Source of the DNA: Candidatus Peribacteria bacterium
Lineage (GTDB): Bacteria > Patescibacteriota > Gracilibacteria > UBA1369 > LOWO2-01-FULL-3
Length of the DNA: 64,000 bases
Reading direction: 5' to 3'
NCBI GenBank assembly: GCA_943358175.1
Contig: CALRGV010000002.1
Span: 51,328 to 115,327, forward strand
The stretch's first letter is position 1; the number at the start of each line of letters is the position of its first letter. Shown here piece by piece: positions 1,379 to 11,342 of the stretch. The notes below the pieces were generated by a model. It was not told where the DNA came from, did not search any database, and saw only the letters and a program-made list of their open reading frames with translations. The translations under genes and the position numbers were made by a program.

Positions 1379-1512
1379 TCCCACAATCCTCAAACTCATA
1401 TCCAAACTCTGTATTCCGGACGTCAGACAGCCCATAGAAATAATATCTACGCCTGTTTTAGCGTAGTCTAAGACGGTTTTTTCATTAATACGGCCGGAAG
1501 CCTCTAAAAAGG
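1376..1512 (-). pseudogene. Fragment of nadC 3' end (C-terminal ~44 codons, in frame), left copy of direct repeat flanking the island
   Basis: 1382-1512 matches 10380-10509 with about 6 substitutions and 1 indel; encodes FLEASGRINEKTVLDYAKTGVDIISMGCLTSGIQSLDMSLRIVG*. Confidence 0.88.
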
Positions 1513-1577
1513 CTTGTTTGTCGTGAATTGTGGTCTTTTTGCCTTGCATGCCGTCCGTGTAAGAAGCGTAAGAGGTT

Positions 1578-1644
1578 GATACAGAAATAGACCAGTTTTA
1601 AGTTTGCGGAAGGCGCAAACAACTGGTCTTTAAGACTCTGTATC
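1578..1644. repeat. Long imperfect hairpin downstream of the RmuC-like gene
   Basis: GATACAG...ACCAGTT..GTTTGCG/CGCAAAC..AACTGGT...CTGTATC. Confidence 0.65.
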
Positions 1645-1684
1645 TTCACAAGTAATTATACTGGTTTGGAATAGGAGGGCAACT

Positions 1685-2900
1685 TTATTTACCATCTCCT
1701 TCAAGAATAGGCCTAACGGAGTGAATATCTTGAGCTGGAATTTGTGCCTTAGGAGCGGTCAATTCTTCAATCTTATCTTGTTGAACTTGGGTATCAATCA
1801 TGAGCGTTTTAATGTCACTCGGCGCAAAGTGCTGAATACGCATTTTGCTCTTTTTTAATGCGATCTCTTCTTTGATATCTTTCTTCAAATTGTTTGCTTT
1901 GGAAAGGACAGATACTCCGCTTTGTGATGCCAATAAGTCGAGGGCATTTCTCATATTGATATGGTGATCAAATTCAGCTATCAAATTTACAATATTCTCT
2001 CTATCTCTGGGATCCATCTGTTCAGCAAGTTCATAGGCACTTAATTTCTTAAATGTAGACAGGAGTACTGGTATGGCATCTGGAGATATAATGAAAAACT
2101 CGTAACTCTGTTCATGAAAATGTGTTTTCGTTAAGGATTGCATTGCCTCCGTAGGCACCACGAAAAAAACTGTAGGATAAATCTTTGGGTTATTATTTAT
2201 CTTTTCTACGGTTCCTTTGACGTTGGTATTCACATAATTTTGGAGATTATCTGATTTTGACATCTTGGCATCAAAAATCACATACTGTCCTAAAAATTCA
2301 ATCATAAAATCAGGCTTAAGCTTGCCACCAAAGCCTTCTGGCAAATTTTTATTATCATAAGTCTCAAAGTTGTATTGTGGCGCTTTGCACAGCTCAAGCA
2401 ATTGAGCCTTCACATTTTCTTCGTGGTCAGCCCACATTCGATCACGCTCATCTTTCTCGCGTTGATCACGTTCCTCATCTTCTTTACGAACCCTCTTTTT
2501 CTCATCATCAAGCGCAGCCTTGGCCTCATCTAATTTTTGTATCCTATTTTCAAACTCTTTCATTTTTCTATCTTCTTCAGCCTGGAATTTTGAAAGGTCT
2601 TTCGCAAGCCTCTCCTTCTCCTTAAGAGCATTGTCACTGTCAGCTTTAAGAGTAGTTTTTTTCTGCAAATAGCTGTTTATTTTCACCAGCCAATTCATCC
2701 TTTTTTGTCTTTTCACTCTGCAACTCCTGAGATAATTCTCCAACCTTTTGATCTTTTTGGCTCAATTCGGCCTTCAAATGTGCATTTTCTTCAATAAACT
2801 TATTCTCGTTATTCGCCTCTTTTTTGGGTTTTAAAAGAAGATAAATGACCGCACCAATCCCAAGTAGCAATAAGATCAAAAGGATATCAGTTGTATTCAT
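1685..2900 (-). CDS. RmuC-like protein: N-terminal TM, coiled coil, PD-(D/E)XK-like domain; split by an apparent +1 frameshift at an A7 run (about 2654-2662)
   Basis: ORFs 2646-2951 (real start probably MNTTDILLILLLL at 2900) and 1685-2743 join as ...GENKQLFAEK|TTLKADSDNALKEKERL...; PDFMIEFLGQYVIFDAK motif. Confidence 0.7.
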
Positions 2901-2908
2901 AAAAAAAG

Positions 2909-5900
2909 TTAATAAGATAATGTCCCTTTGCAATAAGGGAATTTTGAACATCCATAAAACTTACCTCTACGACCATTTCTCAAGATCATACGAGCGCTAC
3001 AGCGTGGACAATTTTTGTCGCTTAAAATAGGCGCAGGTTTGGATGTAGCCGTTTTAATCCTGTTACCTTTGCACTGGTTGCAAAACCTACCATAGCCAGT
3101 GATCAAAGTAGTATCCCTGAAGTCCTGAATGGTTCTTACTTCTTTGCATTTTGGGCATTCTCGCATCTCTCCATTCTGCAATCCCTCAATGGTACAGTGG
3201 ATATTTGATAGAGGAGAACTCGCATTATCAGGAGTTTTGAGCAAACGCCCAATTCTCTCATCAAAGGTCGCTATCGGATTTTCTCCGCTGTTAAATTTAT
3301 TGATTCGCAAAAACTTATAACCATAACTCTCTAGTATTTTCTGACGATACACATCATCGTCGGAATAATAATTTTGATAGTTGAACTCATTTACTGCTTC
3401 TACGTCTTGAAAATGCTCTAGAAAACCGTCGTACTCAATGATGATTTTGTGTTCTTTATGCCGTTCATCTGTATAAATCAAAAGAAAATCAACCTTGTAA
3501 GCTGGATGCGTGTACATACGGTCTAATTGCTTGAGGTATTTTCCAATTTCAAACTGAGGCATAAATTCAATCGTATCTTTGTGTTGCTGCCAAAACTTTG
3601 TCTGATAAAACCAATTCAGCACTACTGGCTCCATCTTTGATTTCTCATCAACTTCAGAAACACTGTGTTCTTTTGCTGCCTCATCGAGCATGTATTTATA
3701 ATGTCTCAAGGCTTCTCCTGCTGAGCCATTATAATCTTCGAGTGGCTTACTCAACACGAAGTGCATAAGCTCTTTTGCGCGGCTAAAACCAACGTTTAAA
3801 CGATGTGCTTTTATCTGCCCATCCTCTTCAATATCTACACTGCTCAAATCTTTAATAAATACACCCCAGAGCTTATCGCTATGCATCGAAGCCACCATCG
3901 AGTAATAGATAATGTCACGTTCCTCGCCTTGGCATGTGTCAAAGGTCATTATCTTGAGCTGTAATTTATCTTGGAAGCAATCCCACTCTGGCATTTTCCC
4001 GATCATTTCTACTAGAAGTTTCTGCTGATTTGTATGAGGCGTGATTATACCGACACTCACAGCCTTACCTTCTTCTTTTAGTCTCTTGAGTTCAGAGATA
4101 ATAAAATCGACTTCTTTTGCATTAGTATTCGGATAGAGTTCGTCTTCTACGGTGGGCTCAACATACGAAAATTTAATCACATCGTTGATGGATTTACCCC
4201 TAATTTTCATTACCTGCAAACTCTCTTGATAGAAATATTTATTGGAGTAAGAAATAATTTCCTTGTAGCCTCTGAAGTGCTTCAGCAACTGGATATTGTA
4301 GTTGCTGATAAACTCGAAAAACTCAAGAATAGAGGTCTTTATATTAAATTTATTGAGCCTCTCAAGCTTGATTGCGTCAGTAGAAACATGGCTCTTAAAG
4401 CACATACTTAACCCATTGAGATACTCTCGGTTCGTATCGCTACGTGCCTGTCCTGCTTTAACGTTACTAAATTGTTTTTTATCCCCAAGTATTAAAACCT
4501 TTTTTGCGCGCAATAGTGCAGGGAACGCCTGCGCTATGCTTACTTGTGATGCTTCATCAATGACAACTAAATCAAATATTTCTGGTTCTAGCGGAATATA
4601 CTCCGCATAGTCCCTAATACCCGCTAAAATGCACGGAAACGCCTCTTTAAGCTTCTTAAACTCATCTCTTGGGAACCTCTGCCTATTCTTAATGATGTTT
4701 CGTAAAGTCTGGGCATCACTACGGTTATGTTCGTAGAAATCTATCAGTCGTCCATCAAGCAGATATGTTACCTGTGTCGTAACCAAATCCTCGATCTGCT
4801 TCATACGGGCGGCATAGTCTAGTTCAGGGATGCCCGAGAAATCTTGGCTTATCTTTTGCTTTAGGTTTAAGTATCTGATCTGCTTATCAAATTCCAACTC
4901 AGGTGATTCAATCATTTCATTATTTATTATCGTGGCAAATTGATCAGTATTAATACCAATTTTCTTTGCTGTATTTGGATACTTCACAATAATTTCTTTA
5001 AGACACTCAACGTCTTCATTGAGGGCAACAATCGTCTGTACGATTTGCGTAAAGTTTTCGTCAGTTAATAGTTTGTGAGCCACTGAAATGTAATCAAAAT
5101 CTCCAGTACTTTTTTTGCCAATATCAGCTCCGAGTTGATGAGCAAAACTAAAAATATCGTGTATGTTTTTGAGCTCCTGAAGTTGCTCATGAGGGCTCAA
5201 TAATGAGCTATGAATAAAGCTTTGTTTAAAACTTACATCAATCTCATCTGCCGCTTTTTTATTGAATAGATATCCCACTAACCAATGTTTTAATTTTGAA
5301 TACTTTTGAATAAAATGCTGGAGCCTTGATAAATCTTTGCTGCTAAATTGCGAAAATTTGTTGATCGAACTAATCTTATTAGAGAATGATGTTTTTATTT
5401 TTTGGATACTTTCCAAAGTCAGTAACAAAAACTGGAAGAATTTTTGGCACTCATCAAGTGTTTTTATGGCTTTAGGATCTACTTCAAGAAGTGCAAATAG
5501 ATTCTTTGCCTCGCCAGAAGTTAGTGTATTCCTAATCTGAGATAGAGAGCTTCTTAAATCTCCCAATTCGATTGCAGCCTCATTTTGCTTGGCTAATTCA
5601 TCGATGTCGAAAATCAAATCCTTATCCCTAAAATAAAGTTCCAGATCAAAGTACTCATGAATTTCTCTTATGCTTATATTGTCATAGGCGAGAATCTCAG
5701 CTTCCAAATCTTCTTTCAGGGAATTACTTGATTTGGTAATTGTTTCTTCTACAGTCTCATGATCCTTTTTGACAGCTCGATAGTGGGTTTTTACACCCTC
5801 AATAGCACTTTGAGCAAGAATTGAATTATATGTGTTGCCAGTTTTACCAAGCCTCAAGATTGGATTTTGAAAATTCTTATCGTATCGAACTTTGTTCATT

Positions 5901-7432
5901 GTTTGGGTAATCTTGTCCTCAACAACATCCAGTGCCTCCTTTTTATCGGAGAGCACTAACACTGATTGGTTTTTCAAAATTGCATCAAAAATAATCGCCG
6001 TGATGGTGTGACTTTTTCCTGTACCTGGCGGCCCAGCAACCACAATATAGTTGCAACCATCTTTGCGAACAGCAGACAAAATTTGCCGTTGTTCGCTATT
6101 GAGTGGTATCGGACTTTCATACACAAGCCTATCTGGGGAGTCTGTACCATCCCATTCGTCCTCTATACCTGGATTAAATGGTTCAGGGTTCTTGTGAACA
6201 AAGTTATCGATTAGCTTATTAAAAATTTCAGCAAGAATACCTCCTTCCTGGCTTAATTGTTGGAGAATTTCCTCATAGTCATTTACTAATGCTTCGTCTG
6301 ATTTATCAAATAAACAGACATAGGAACTATTGGAAATACGCACGGAAGCGCCTTTCGCAATACTGAATTCCTCGCTTGAGAAATCCACTGTGCTATCGAT
6401 TCCAAAAAAATGAGAAAGTTCATTGAGGATACCATTGATAATTTGAGGAAAATCACTCTTGTGTTGTGACAGATAGATAATACGCTCTGTTATGGTCTCT
6501 AAATTACCCATCGTTCCTTTTTGGGCATTGTGCTCCTGTACAATGAATTCTAAAGCCTTTTTGTTGATGTAAACTTGTGCATCAAATTCAATATTAAGCG
6601 TGTCTCCCTCCCTACGTGTAGCAAATGGGATATAAAAGACAGGATATTTGATATTGTTGAATGAAATGTCCCCGAAATAGAGGTAAAAATCTTGCTTGTC
6701 CAAAATGCTCTTATTGCGATCCATCTCGAATAATTCAAGGAAAAAATCAGCCACCTGAAGATTTTCAAAGAAGGAGACTAGATTGCCTTTCACGTCTTGA
6801 GGCACAAATACCGATTTCAGCTCCTTTATAAGATTGACCTTCTCTTGTGCGATAAGGAGATTCAATATTTCTGATATTTTGTTCTCCATCAAGCGAAGAA
6901 TAACTGCAGTCAGCTCCTCTTCAATGAGATAGATGTTATCTTCATCGCCAAGATTGAGGTTCTGTAATGGCTTTTCAATGCTTTCTACAAAAGGATGCAC
7001 AAGTGCACTACCAAGAATTTTTGCAGCTCCCTCTACAGAATTGGTAAGCGCTACGTCGTATTCTTTCGCGTACAATGTGCCTGCCTTTTCTATTGCATCA
7101 GCGACTCTCTCGGTAACAGTACTGATTTCCGCATTGGTAATTTTTCCAATTTGGAGTTTTATTAAATCAAGCAAATTCTTAGGCAGATTCGTTTTGTACA
7201 CGCCTTTTTCTACCTTGTTCAGAACTTCTTTATCAAAACTCTTATTAATGAGTTTTGACACTATCTTGTTGAAAGATGGATACTTTTGAAGGTTTAAACC
7301 AATGAGCAAATTGTCATTATTGCGGAATTTGATGCTACGACGCGGAAACTTATGTTTATGGAAATCCGTTTCCAGAAAATCCATAAAATATTTGGCAACT
7401 TCCTTGATAAATAAAAGAGGGTTTTTCTCCAT
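2909..7432 (-). CDS. SF1 (Dna2/UPF1-type, AAA_11/AAA_12) helicase with C-terminal VSR/DUF559-like endonuclease domain and Zn ribbons
   Basis: Walker A VVAGPPGTGKSHT, DEAS box FDLVVIDEASQVS, C-terminal LNVGFSRAKE; KVDFLLIYTD..KIIIEYDG.. nuclease-like motif; CPKC-CNQC and CPRC-C(x)CK topoisomerase-type Zn ribbon. Confidence 0.85.
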   Translation of the reverse strand: MEKNPLLFIKEVAKYFMDFLETDFHKHKFPRRSIKFRNNDNLLIGLNLQKYPSFNKIVSKLINKSFDKEVLNKVEKGVYKTNLPKNLLDLIKLQIGKITNAEISTVTERVADAIEKAGTLYAKEYDVALTNSVEGAAKILGSALVHPFVESIEKPLQNLNLGDEDNIYLIEEELTAVILRLMENKISEILNLLIAQEKVNLIKELKSVFVPQDVKGNLVSFFENLQVADFFLELFEMDRNKSILDKQDFYLYFGDISFNNIKYPVFYIPFATRREGDTLNIEFDAQVYINKKALEFIVQEHNAQKGTMGNLETITERIIYLSQHKSDFPQIINGILNELSHFFGIDSTVDFSSEEFSIAKGASVRISNSSYVCLFDKSDEALVNDYEEILQQLSQEGGILAEIFNKLIDNFVHKNPEPFNPGIEDEWDGTDSPDRLVYESPIPLNSEQRQILSAVRKDGCNYIVVAGPPGTGKSHTITAIIFDAILKNQSVLVLSDKKEALDVVEDKITQTMNKVRYDKNFQNPILRLGKTGNTYNSILAQSAIEGVKTHYRAVKKDHETVEETITKSSNSLKEDLEAEILAYDNISIREIHEYFDLELYFRDKDLIFDIDELAKQNEAAIELGDLRSSLSQIRNTLTSGEAKNLFALLEVDPKAIKTLDECQKFFQFLLLTLESIQKIKTSFSNKISSINKFSQFSSKDLSRLQHFIQKYSKLKHWLVGYLFNKKAADEIDVSFKQSFIHSSLLSPHEQLQELKNIHDIFSFAHQLGADIGKKSTGDFDYISVAHKLLTDENFTQIVQTIVALNEDVECLKEIIVKYPNTAKKIGINTDQFATIINNEMIESPELEFDKQIRYLNLKQKISQDFSGIPELDYAARMKQIEDLVTTQVTYLLDGRLIDFYEHNRSDAQTLRNIIKNRQRFPRDEFKKLKEAFPCILAGIRDYAEYIPLEPEIFDLVVIDEASQVSIAQAFPALLRAKKVLILGDKKQFSNVKAGQARSDTNREYLNGLSMCFKSHVSTDAIKLERLNKFNIKTSILEFFEFISNYNIQLLKHFRGYKEIISYSNKYFYQESLQVMKIRGKSINDVIKFSYVEPTVEDELYPNTNAKEVDFIISELKRLKEEGKAVSVGIITPHTNQQKLLVEMIGKMPEWDCFQDKLQLKIMTFDTCQGEERDIIYYSMVASMHSDKLWGVFIKDLSSVDIEEDGQIKAHRLNVGFSRAKELMHFVLSKPLEDYNGSAGEALRHYKYMLDEAAKEHSVSEVDEKSKMEPVVLNWFYQTKFWQQHKDTIEFMPQFEIGKYLKQLDRMYTHPAYKVDFLLIYTDERHKEHKIIIEYDGFLEHFQDVEAVNEFNYQNYYSDDDVYRQKILESYGYKFLRINKFNSGENPIATFDERIGRLLKTPDNASSPLSNIHCTIEGLQNGEMRECPKCKEVRTIQDFRDTTLITGYGRFCNQCKGNRIKTATSKPAPILSDKNCPRCSARMILRNGRRGKFYGCSKFPYCKGTLSY

Positions 7433-7439
7433 AATTCTG

Positions 7440-8576
7440 CTATTTCTTAAGTAAATTTAAGTACTTCTCAAAGGCGAAAAGTCGGTTTCGTTTATACCCA
7501 GTTATCTCCTTTAATATTCCGTATTTAACAAACATATCGACCAACTCATAGGTTGTTTTATTTGCAACGCCTAGCTCCTCTTTGACCTGTTGCATGGTGA
7601 CAACTGGCCTAACAAAGAGATATTTAAGCAATGCTTGTCCAGATTTTGCTCTTTTTCCAAAATTTTCCACCAAAGAAGTATGTAATTCTTCTTTAAGATC
7701 AATTATTCGCTGAAGAGTGCTAACTGCTGCTTCAGCTGTCGCAGTAACGCCATCTAGAAAAAATTTAATCCACCCAAGAAGATCGTTCTTTTCCCTTACG
7801 AGCGACAATTTATCGTAATAAAGCCCTTTGTTTTTCTCAAAAAAATCAGATATGTACAAAAGTGGTTTTTCAAGCACTCCCTGGCTAATAAAATAGAGAA
7901 CAATGAGCAATCGCCCAACTCTTCCATTCCCATCCAAAAAGGGATGAATAGTCTCAAATTGGTAGTGAGCTATAGCAATTTTGATCAAATAAGGAACCTG
8001 AATCTCTTCATTGTGTAAAAATTTCTCAAGATCAGACATCAAATCGTCTACGTGTTCTGCACTTGGTGGAACAAACACCGCATCTTTCGGTGTTAAGCCA
8101 CCAATCCAGTTCTGACTTCGCCTAAACTCCCCAGGCTGCTTGTTCTTGCCTCTTCCATGGGACAATAAGACCTTATGAGCTTCTTTTAAGAGTCTGTTAG
8201 AAAGTGGAATTTTACTTAACTGCTTCAAAGCAAAATCCATAGCCAAAACATATTGATTTACCTCAACCCAATCATCTCTATACTCTGGATCAATATTGAT
8301 CTTATCGGTAAAAGCCTCTTCAATATTCGTCTTAGTTCCTTCAATTCTACTAGAGGTAACTGCTTCTTTCCTTATGTAAGAGCGAATAAACGTATTGATG
8401 TCGGGTACCAATTTGGCATATGAATTGAGCTCTCCAAGCTTTAAATAGGCTTTTTCCAGCTTTTTCTGTATGACGGAATCAGAAAAAGTGAAGGTATGAT
8501 CTACCTTTGCTGGTAAGAAAAACTTGTATTCATAACCCTTTTGCCAGGCTCCTGGATTGAATTTTTCGATCTCCAT
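7440..8576 (-). CDS. Fic family protein (N-terminal inhibitory motif, Fic core, C-terminal winged HTH)
   Basis: HPFLDGNGRVGRLL Fic motif; SSRIEGTKTNIEEA inhibitory-helix-like motif; C-terminal wHTH-like segment. Confidence 0.93.
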   Translation of the reverse strand: MEIEKFNPGAWQKGYEYKFFLPAKVDHTFTFSDSVIQKKLEKAYLKLGELNSYAKLVPDINTFIRSYIRKEAVTSSRIEGTKTNIEEAFTDKINIDPEYRDDWVEVNQYVLAMDFALKQLSKIPLSNRLLKEAHKVLLSHGRGKNKQPGEFRRSQNWIGGLTPKDAVFVPPSAEHVDDLMSDLEKFLHNEEIQVPYLIKIAIAHYQFETIHPFLDGNGRVGRLLIVLYFISQGVLEKPLLYISDFFEKNKGLYYDKLSLVREKNDLLGWIKFFLDGVTATAEAAVSTLQRIIDLKEELHTSLVENFGKRAKSGQALLKYLFVRPVVTMQQVKEELGVANKTTYELVDMFVKYGILKEITGYKRNRLFAFEKYLNLLKK

Positions 8577-8579
8577 GAT

Positions 8580-8607
8580 AGTAGAATATAAAATTCTCTA
8601 TTCTACT
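8580..8607. promoter_or_regulatory. Perfect 9-bp inverted repeat immediately upstream of the Fic start codon; candidate operator
   Basis: AGTAGAATA-taaaattctc-TATTCTACT. Confidence 0.5.
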
Positions 8608-8777
8608 TTACCCTGCTAAAGGGAAATATGCAAATCCTTATTCCACTTTCTTGGTCACGTAAAACAATCTCTCCAATTCCAACAATATGTCAGGTAAAAT
8701 AAAGAGTTTTCTTCAACTGGTCACAACTCGTGGCCACTTCAAAACAAGCAGTTCTACCTCCCGTCCTGCCCTATTAC

Positions 8778-8946
8778 TTAAACCCCCACCACCCGCGCAT
8801 CCTCCACCTGATCCCGCTCCTCCAAGTACACCTCCTCAATAAAGCGCTTCTCTGCGCCAATCTCCCTTACATATCGCTTTTTCTTTAGTTCAGCCGTAAA
8901 ATGAAACTGAAAATAACCATTGGCAGGTATTTGACCAAAAAATGGG
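8778..8946 (-). pseudogene. C-terminal remnant of an unidentified protein truncated next to the tRNA-like gene
   Basis: Open frame without start: PFFGQIPANGYFQFHFTAELKKKRYVREIGAEKRFIEEVYLEERDQVEDARVVGV*. Confidence 0.45.
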
Positions 8947-9052
8947 GGGGGTATAGCTCAATGGTAGAGCCTCATTCTGAATTGCTTATATTGCTTAAAA
9001 TATCGGCAGCTCAGAAATGACTGCACGGGTTCGATTCCCGTTACCTCCACCA
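8947..9052 (+). tRNA. tRNA-Ala-type acceptor / tRNA-like gene with ~32-nt expansion in the anticodon arm; amino-acid identity unproven
   Basis: GGGGGTA/TACCTCC acceptor with G3:T70 and A73-CCA, D-arm GCTC-AATGGTA-GAGC, anticodon-stem TCATT/AATGA, T-arm ACGGG-TTCGATT-CCCGT; 106 nt including CCA. Confidence 0.75.
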
Positions 9053-9077
9053 CAAAAATATAAAAAGTTAATTTATT

Positions 9078-10367
9078 ATGAGTGATGACCTATCGCCACC
9101 TTTTAGTGATTGCCCAAGATGCAATAATAAATCATATGGAATTTTAGCAATTTATCCCGAATTGAATTCCCAAAACAGTATTCTCGCAAAAGGGTGTTCG
9201 TATTGTAGACACCATCAACTTTCTAATTTACCCCACATATCAAAAAAAATTATTTATCTAGATCAAAATGCAATAAGCAATCTACAGTTTGCAGCAAATA
9301 CAAATAGTCCAAAACATCAAAAAGCCATCTTGGATGGATGGCAAACACTTTTCAATAAATTAAATAAACTTATTAAATATAACTTAATCATTTGTCCCTA
9401 CTCAGATATTCATGTTTTAGAATCAGTTCCTACAACAGAGTTTCATAATTTACAACACTTTCAGGAGATTCTATCTGGGATGATTACATTCAGTCATCAT
9501 AACTTAGTAGAGGACATTCAGGTAAAAAAATATTTCAAAAATTATATCCTAGGTAAAATAGACTCAGAGGCATTAATAGAGGAAATTGACTGCTTCGATA
9601 TATATCCACATTCCTGGTACATGAAATCAAAAGCTATTGATGAATTTAGATTAGACTTCCCACTAAAAAACGAAGAAGTCGAAGAAGTAAAAAATGCAAA
9701 TATCAAAGCTCATAATCAATTAGAAGAAAGCACCTATCTAAGATGGAAAAACAGAGATAGTAAAAAATTCGAAGAGTTAGTCTTAGAAGAAGCTACAGCA
9801 TTCGGAAACGAAAAATTGTGGTGGTTCGCCAAGTATTACAGATATATTAAAGGTCTCAGGGAAAACACAGCTATTGAAGAGATGGTTAAGCCTCCAGCAT
9901 TCGATTTAATATCAGAATTAATTAAAATTGCAAAATCCAACTCTAGCAATATTATTCTAAAAGATTTTTTCAATTCAAAATCAATATTAAATGTACCATG
10001 TATTAGGATTTCATCTGAATATTTTGCATCCATAGCAAGAAAATTAAATAAAGACAGTAAGAATAGGTACCCTCGAAAAAGCAATCCTAGTCCAGGAATG
10101 CTAAGTGACTCGGTATCATTATCTACATTCCTTCCGTATTGCGATGCTTTTTTTACTGATAACGAAAACTATGCCCTGTTTCAAGAAAAACCACTTAAAA
10201 TAGAAAAGAAAAAATATAATACGGAAATATTCTCCAAGCGAAATATGGATGAATTTATAGAGTATCTTGAAAATATTTGGCTCAATGCAAATAAATTGCA
10301 TTTAAATCTAGTGAGAGAAATATACGACGAGAAATGGCTAAACTCATCAGAAATTAATTTTTTTTAG
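9078..10367 (+). CDS. Zn-ribbon + PIN-like domain protein, putative ribonuclease
   Basis: N-terminal CPRC-x(n)-CSYC; IIYLDQNAISNL and LSTFLPYCDAFFTDNE acidic motifs typical of PIN-like folds. Confidence 0.55.
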   Translation: MSDDLSPPFSDCPRCNNKSYGILAIYPELNSQNSILAKGCSYCRHHQLSNLPHISKKIIYLDQNAISNLQFAANTNSPKHQKAILDGWQTLFNKLNKLIKYNLIICPYSDIHVLESVPTTEFHNLQHFQEILSGMITFSHHNLVEDIQVKKYFKNYILGKIDSEALIEEIDCFDIYPHSWYMKSKAIDEFRLDFPLKNEEVEEVKNANIKAHNQLEESTYLRWKNRDSKKFEELVLEEATAFGNEKLWWFAKYYRYIKGLRENTAIEEMVKPPAFDLISELIKIAKSNSSNIILKDFFNSKSILNVPCIRISSEYFASIARKLNKDSKNRYPRKSNPSPGMLSDSVSLSTFLPYCDAFFTDNENYALFQEKPLKIEKKKYNTEIFSKRNMDEFIEYLENIWLNANKLHLNLVREIYDEKWLNSSEINFF

Positions 10368-10376
10368 ATCAAGAGA

Positions 10377-11342
10377 CTACACAATCCTCAAACTCATATC
10401 CAAACTCTGAATTCCAGACGTCAGACAACCCATAGAAATGATGTCTACGCCTGTTTTAGCGTAGTCTAAGACGGTTTTTTCATTAATACGGCCAGAAGCC
10501 TCAAAAAGGATTCCATCGTGCAATCCGAGCTCTTTTACCCTTTCTATAGCCATTTTAGTGTCTTCAGCCGAAACATTATCAATCAAAGCTACTCCAACAG
10601 ATTTAATTTTGCCACCTAAATATCTTGGAAAAATTTCAGCAAGTTTCACGACATCATCCACATTTCCCACTTCCACCTCCACAAACCTGCAATCCAAATC
10701 AGCATCAGCTATTTTCCCCAAAACCATCTCAAAATCATGTCCGGCTACATACATATGAGTATTTTTAACCAAAACAGCATCAGCCAAATTAAGCCTATGA
10801 CTACCGCCTCCACCAATTACTACAGCCTTTCTATCAATCCATCCCCACAAAGCCTTACGCGTAGGAGTAATCATTACATCATAATCCTTGATTAAATTCA
10901 CAATTTTTCTCGTCATCGTGGCGATAGCACTCATTCTCATAATCAAATTTAAAACCGTCCTCTCAACTGCCAATAAATCATGCAATTCAGCTTCTAACTC
11001 AATCAAAACATCCCCCGATTTTATCTCCTGACCATCCTTCACATTAAATTTAATTTTAAACTCACTTAACAATCTCGGTCTAAATTGAGGATCTGCGTCT
11101 ACTAAAAAATATTGAATTTCCTCTCGTCCAGCAAAAATTCCATCCTCCTTGGCAATAATATTTGCACTAACATTTTGTTTCTCAGTGAAAAGACTATCTG
11201 AAGTAATATCTCCTTTAGTGCCCAAATCCTTCTCTAATTCCAAAAAAGTATAGCGAAAAACCCACTGCTTATAAGTAGAGTTCTCGATAGTGAGTAATCT
11301 ATCAGCCCTGTGTGTAAAATTTTTTAATGATTTTCTATCCAT
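10377..11342 (-). CDS. nadC: Nicotinate-nucleotide pyrophosphorylase (quinolinate phosphoribosyltransferase)
   Basis: TPTRKALWGWIDRKAVVIGGGGSHRLNLADAVLVKNTH; EVEVGNVDD; C-terminal DIISMGCLTSGIQSLDMSL. Confidence 0.94.
   Translation of the reverse strand: MDRKSLKNFTHRADRLLTIENSTYKQWVFRYTFLELEKDLGTKGDITSDSLFTEKQNVSANIIAKEDGIFAGREEIQYFLVDADPQFRPRLLSEFKIKFNVKDGQEIKSGDVLIELEAELHDLLAVERTVLNLIMRMSAIATMTRKIVNLIKDYDVMITPTRKALWGWIDRKAVVIGGGGSHRLNLADAVLVKNTHMYVAGHDFEMVLGKIADADLDCRFVEVEVGNVDDVVKLAEIFPRYLGGKIKSVGVALIDNVSAEDTKMAIERVKELGLHDGILFEASGRINEKTVLDYAKTGVDIISMGCLTSGIQSLDMSLRIV

Follow-up and report, generated by a model that had tools for sequence, protein, structure and literature searches.

Many VapC toxins cut tRNA anticodon loops, and in type III ToxIN and type VIII CreTA a small structured RNA lies beside a toxin-like gene. 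The G3:U70 pair is the identity element of alanine tRNAs, and neither AlaRS nor LeuRS needs the anticodon of its tRNA. The target of VapC10, as named in the title of one report, is tRNASer (PMC10945364).

Here we analysed a 64,000-nt stretch of contig CALRGV010000002.1 from a Candidatus Peribacteria genome (hereafter the window), which holds a real and unusual RNA gene, a tRNA-like gene with a long hairpin in its anticodon arm (the hairpin tRNA), beside a member of a new and probably PIN-like nuclease family. The protein appears to have the same strand and helix order and the same D...E...D...D pattern (D62, E115, D344, D361) as VapC/PIN toxins (PF01850) and PIN_12 (PF16289), but it differs in its length of about 430 aa, in the zinc ribbon at its N-terminus and in a long insert of helices; it has no Pfam match, and no vapB-like partner was seen beside it. 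The pair may resemble ToxIN and CreTA in that a structured RNA adjoins a toxin-like gene, but it has neither a repeat RNA precursor nor a CRISPR link, and its RNA is found in 2 of 89 loci. The anticodon-loop insert, detected by ARAGORN -i, is shared with intron-containing tRNA genes; however, the spliced anticodon of the hairpin tRNA would mismatch its body, and the insert lengthens the anticodon stem as a hairpin and, at 32 nt, is no group I intron. The literature searched describes no such tRNA-nuclease pair, which is weak evidence of novelty because preprints were outside the coverage. The reading we favour, at a probability of roughly 0.4, is that RNA and protein form a facultative functional pair in a mobile, defence-type cassette. 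The coordinates of the features are summarized in Table 1.

Table 1. Features of the hairpin tRNA, the protein gene and the surrounding island (positions in the window)
Feature	Position	Strand	Basis or remark
Hairpin tRNA gene	8947-9049, encoded CCA to 9052	+	RF00005, R1 covariance model, ARAGORN -i, fold z -4.0
Extended anticodon arm	8972-9020	+	UCAUUCUGA/UCAG-A-AAUGA, 9 bp, one bulged A; 2 more 5-bp helices; apical loop GCUUAA
Spacer from CCA to start codon	9053-9077	+	25 nt
PIN-like zinc-ribbon protein (probable), 429 aa	9078-10367	+	Family without database model
C4 zinc ribbon (C12, C15, C40, C43)	9111-9208	+	Four Cys invariant, 46 sequences
Putative PIN-like core, part 1	9246-9425	+	Strand KIIYLD62Q, then LIICPxSxxHxxE115S; predicted strand-helix order
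Putative PIN-like core, part 2	10096-10281	+	D344xxxISxxLPYCD356AxFxD361, strand TEIFS, C-terminal helix
Foreign island	1510-10379		Missing from this junction in G002, G003 (same genus)
Left copy of nadC 3' end	1382-1509	-	95% identical to 10380-10507; direct repeat flanking the island
Right copy, 3' end of intact nadC (10377-11342)	10380-10507	-	Other flanking direct repeat, 128 nt

According to the first-pass annotation, the anticodon arm of the tRNA-like gene is altered and its CCA end lies 25 nt from the ATG of the protein gene, and both points were borne out. The hairpin tRNA scores 55.6 bits against RF00005 (E=2.9e-9 over the window; gathering score 29) and 57.7 bits against the R1 covariance model, which was built from 18 tRNAs of the source genome. 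All base pairs are present in the acceptor (7 of 7), the D stem (4 of 4) and the T stem (5 of 5), the CCA is encoded, the anticodon stem is UCAUU/AAUGA, and the conserved tRNA bases and those of the tertiary contacts are intact. A 39-nt hairpin substitutes for the 7-nt anticodon loop, and the readable anticodon that marks a tRNA gene is missing. The whole RNA folds at -37.8 kcal/mol (z=-4.0; 0 of 200 shuffles equally good), and the extended anticodon arm folded alone also reaches z=-4.0 against shuffles. That only the anticodon loop is altered, by a stable hairpin, in an otherwise complete tRNA fold argues for a functional pair. The acceptor, as read from the sequence, carries G3:U70 and A73, and by G3:U70 the body is classed as Ala-type. 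A permuted tmRNA identity was rejected (score 18.5, gathering 47). In phage records, the only match is a 29-nt stretch of T arm and acceptor shared with a Pantoea phage tRNA. Just upstream, an open frame at 8778-8948 (-), ending in FGQIPANGYFQFHFTAELKKKRYVREIGAEKRFIEEVYLEERDQVEDARVVGV (then stop), resembles the C-terminal remnant of a gene truncated where the tRNA-like gene begins.

The source genome gives 44 tRNA-model matches. Its fetched tRNA loci include ordinary Ala-UGC (Ala-TGC) and Ala-GGC genes, and the remaining set is nearly complete. Since ordinary Ala-UGC and Ala-GGC are present elsewhere in the genome, the hairpin tRNA is an extra gene and thus free for another role, which also counts for the functional pair. 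The presence of normal genes bears as well on another explanation, namely that a tRNA able to decode arises when a 32-nt intron is spliced out, perhaps by the nuclease encoded next to it. ARAGORN missed the gene in default mode and, with introns allowed, reports a tRNA at 8947-9052 whose anticodon loop is interrupted by a 32-nt insert, and such genes do exist in the phylum. A search for tRNAs with a long middle region across 384 genomes of the phylum gave matches in 26; leaving the window aside, about three of these are clearly tRNAs of the hairpin or intron-like kind: two Val-TAC (L201 in G153, L214 in G145) and one Lys-TTT (L222 in G264), each with a hairpin of 21-36 nt inserted into its anticodon loop and a matching anticodon. 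These inserts are short and intron-like, and by size they are not group I introns. In the hairpin tRNA, by contrast, the possible spliced anticodons (GCA, GAA, UCA) mismatch the Ala-type body, the UCC that splicing would give in its only counterpart (L137, described below) mismatches a Leu body, and the hairpin pairs across the splice region. We therefore consider splicing very improbable.

The 429-aa protein carries the CxxC...CxxC ribbon (C12xxC15...C40xxC43) and the motifs YLDQNAISNL and CDAFFTDNE just as the first reading had them. In an alignment of 46 sequences, C12/C15/C40/C43, Y60, D62, Q63, P107, S109, E115 and W223 are invariant, while D344, D356 and D361 reach 90% conservation or more, and the D, E, D and D of PIN nucleases stand at the right places (D62, E115, D344, D361). 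Homologues, at 21-31% identity to the window protein, come from Rhizobium and Mesorhizobium plasmids, 4 viral contigs, genomes of the same phylum and 79 loci in public genomes of many phyla, and the family spreads over Patescibacteria, Pseudomonadota, Bacillota, Verrucomicrobiota and others; none was found in phage records. Searches of the window protein against Pfam, NCBIfam, PADLOC and PHROGs gave no match, a sequence-profile search of PDB gave nothing significant, and none of the 46 family members matched Pfam. This zinc-ribbon family is thus previously unclassified, with no Pfam, NCBIfam or PADLOC model, although it is widespread, keeps its ribbon and acidic residues strictly and occurs in mobile and defence-type surroundings.

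The AlphaFold2 model of the window protein (mean pLDDT 90.6) runs through a strand (YLD62), helices, LIICP, the E115 helix, a long helical insert that divides the two parts of the putative core, the D344 helix, a strand (CDAFFTD361), a helix, a strand (TEIFS) and a helix. Using Foldseek against PDB and viral models, with the whole protein or without its ribbon, no PIN structure was retrieved, which counts against a functional pair; the matches of the whole model are local and to zinc ribbons only (NrdR, Rpb9, RPA12-type), and the rest of the protein matched nothing. A VapC profile compared by hhalign, whole and in pieces, was not significant, and PF13638 had no match in the relatives. The sole sequence bridge between the family and PIN is L002, whose C-terminus matches the PIN-like family (E=2e-5) and whose N-terminus matches PIN_12 (PF16289) weakly, at E=0.0025 and below the curated cut-off. 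From the order of elements and this weak PIN_12 bridge, a PIN-like core with an insert is probable for the window protein rather than proven, and it is probably an RNA-cutting protein of defence type. The earlier assignment as PIN-like is supported by acidic motifs conserved across the family and the PIN fold itself indirectly, with no PIN structure from Foldseek and no match to any Pfam PIN model.

The RNA and the nuclease had been proposed to form a new kind of unit if their pairing recurs, the RNA being a conceivable decoy or antitoxin, guide or activator. We surveyed 88 homologous loci (L003-L011, L121-L199) with Rfam, ARAGORN with and without introns, the tRNA covariance model and, up to 700 bp from the gene, a T-arm scan with permissive settings. 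With all methods combined, a hairpin tRNA adjoining the gene is absent from 87 of the 88, absence being less certain in some loci that end near the gene, and this counts against a functional pair. Hairpin tRNA and PIN-like gene occur together in 2 of 89 loci when the window is included, short of the recurrence that a toxin-antitoxin system would display. The sole homologous locus with a similar neighbour is L137 (Ca. Peribacteraceae), where the tRNA-like gene lies on the opposite strand with its CCA end at 4352, 4 nt past the stop codon at 4347. The body of this RNA is of Leu type and includes a long variable arm, and in place of the anticodon loop there is an almost perfectly paired hairpin of about 20 bp; the RNA is unrelated to the Ala-type one of the window. 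It appears to be an extra gene too, because the L137 genome has 45 tRNA-model matches (isoacceptors checked in part). L155, the sister of L137 at 100/100 support, has no hairpin tRNA beside its gene, and the window protein and L137 stand apart in the protein tree, which again counts against the functional pair. Since tRNA type, side and orientation differ (upstream and co-directional in the window, downstream and convergent in L137), there is no common operon design, and because the L137 arrangement is convergent, co-transcription is not a common feature.

From the above, the pairing recurs once, independently, but does not characterise the family (87 of 88 loci are without it), and the idea of an RNA-plus-nuclease unit survives as a minority arrangement. 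Homologues lacking a linked tRNA-like gene, which the first-pass annotation had named as evidence against a unit, turned out to be nearly all of them, L155 included. Any pair must be facultative, because most family members do without the hairpin tRNA.

About equally likely as a facultative pair is hitch-hiking at a tRNA hotspot, in which a mobile nuclease family often lands beside tRNA genes and the same island brought along the hairpin tRNA as an altered or decaying tRNA copy with no functional link to the nuclease. The scarcity of paired loci fits this explanation. In L003, L127, L134, L154 and L169 an ordinary tRNA or a tRNA 3' fragment is no more than 700 bp from the family gene, which is mostly on the 3' side of the tRNA, so integration at tRNA genes would explain the proximity without any function. 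Moreover, the island is flanked by nadC repeats and adjoins tRNA-Leu, and hairpin- or intron-like tRNAs are found in other Patescibacteria (L201, L214 and L222, with no PIN-like family member in their loci) and in viral contigs without a family member nearby. The intact state of all tRNA helices, tertiary-contact bases and CCA, together with the unusual stability of the hairpins, is on the other hand unlike decay. It also has to be explained that a rare hairpin kind turned up among the few tRNAs near family genes, for which we estimate a chance below about 1%. At most about 0.003 hairpin tRNAs are expected within 100 nt of the 88 genes, even allowing a generous 60 per 384 genomes, with the background count scaled for a pattern that covers the D-arm sequence of about one fifth of tRNAs (8 of 39); these chance figures are rough, as a single phylum supplied the background, the classification of matches was visual and tRNA-associated integration makes such proximity likelier. 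The recurrence in L137 is thus unlikely to be pure chance, hairpin tRNAs being rare, though this rests on one additional case.

Phage tRNA-like genes with a long middle part number in the dozens on viral contigs (L044-L110), and several of them have a clear anticodon-arm hairpin, e.g. L060 and L054/L067/L087/L100. As counterparts of the window pair these matches were rejected, being a mixture of class II tRNAs, overlapping tRNAs and long-middle tRNA-likes with no family member in their loci.

The island is about 9 kb long and is inserted between tRNA-Leu(UAG) and nadC. In G002 and G003, tRNA-Leu(UAG) and nadC are separated at this junction by an unrelated gene about 1.1 kb long. Besides the hairpin tRNA and the PIN-like gene, the island carries genes for a 352-aa protein, a SoFic-like Fic protein and a helicase-nuclease of 1507 aa; none of its listed ORFs was recognised as an integrase. 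The 1507-aa protein (2909-7432, -) has AAA_11/AAA_12 helicase domains, a Top1-type zinc ribbon and a weak REase_MTES_1575 match, and its best PADLOC matches are PDC-S37 and MkoC. No promoter-like site was found upstream of 9078 on the + strand. A promoter would not fit into the 25-nt spacer in front of the nuclease gene, whose transcript must therefore begin within the tRNA-like gene or upstream of it, a point in favour of the functional pair. Defence-type neighbours count for it as well: in the window the SoFic-like Fic protein and the large helicase, in L137 a HEPN_AbiU2 gene (2284-2952, -) that lies directly upstream of the PIN-like gene and points away from it, and near other family genes a type I methyltransferase, HNH, Cas4-like and PDC-S11 genes. 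Taken by themselves, the homologue neighbourhoods support a defence role and do not prove it, the PADLOC helicase and methyltransferase models being broad.

If the facultative pair is real, the protein would be a zinc-ribbon, PIN_12-related RNase, a defence or toxin effector most likely directed at RNA and plausibly at tRNA. The hairpin tRNA would be a non-decoding tRNA mimic, its anticodon loop concealed in the long hairpin and its Ala-type body still recognisable and chargeable. Should the nuclease act on anticodon arms like many PIN toxins, a tRNA body whose hairpin is closed would be naturally suited to decoy or inhibit it. In both the window and L137 the nuclease could bind the hairpin tRNA as an uncleavable substrate, with the RNA serving as decoy, inhibitor or guard. 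Because their synthetases ignore the anticodon, both hairpin tRNAs (Ala and Leu types) would be chargeable though non-decoding, which with two cases is no more than suggestive. The fullest version, a hairpin-armed, non-decoding tRNA mimic that is bound by a PIN-like RNase and restrains or triggers it, and that arose at least twice from different tRNA bodies, seems to us rather unlikely as a whole. With the hairpin tRNA as a partner, a tRNA mimic would control a nuclease and link tRNA biology with defence; even if unpaired, hairpin tRNAs missed by standard tRNA finders are an overlooked class.

Charging could also serve another end, with AlaRS charging the hairpin tRNA via G3:U70 for non-ribosomal use (cell-wall or lipid alanylation, tailing) and the nuclease nearby by accident. 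G3:U70, A73 and CCA would suit such an aminoacyl donor, and the source genome and its genus hold other compact Ala-type tRNA-like RNAs of conserved structure. Three of these, of 71-74 nt, are L252 (G000:C1:44379-44545, -), L253 (G000:C27:8385-8532, -) and L254 (G000:C42, about 1009-1079, +); all have G3:U70, a T arm and a common A/T-rich upstream block, ARAGORN misses them, and G002, of the same genus, keeps an RNA of the L252 type in which one change appears compensatory. They are possibly non-decoding alanine carriers. The hairpin tRNA shares G3:U70 and the T arm with all three and the CCA with L252 and L254, but the compact RNAs differ in shape, having no long hairpin, and their upstream block is missing from it. 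Furthermore, the hairpin tRNA sits in a foreign island and no transferase gene is linked to it, and we regard a donor role as improbable. Another Ala-type acceptor (G3:U70) of the source genome belongs to a tRNA with a UAA anticodon and an irregular anticodon arm (L039; L255:2539-2614; G000:C4:77038-77110). An ordinary tRNA-Leu(UAA) is also encoded in this genome, and the tRNA of L039/L255 could be mistranslating or non-decoding.
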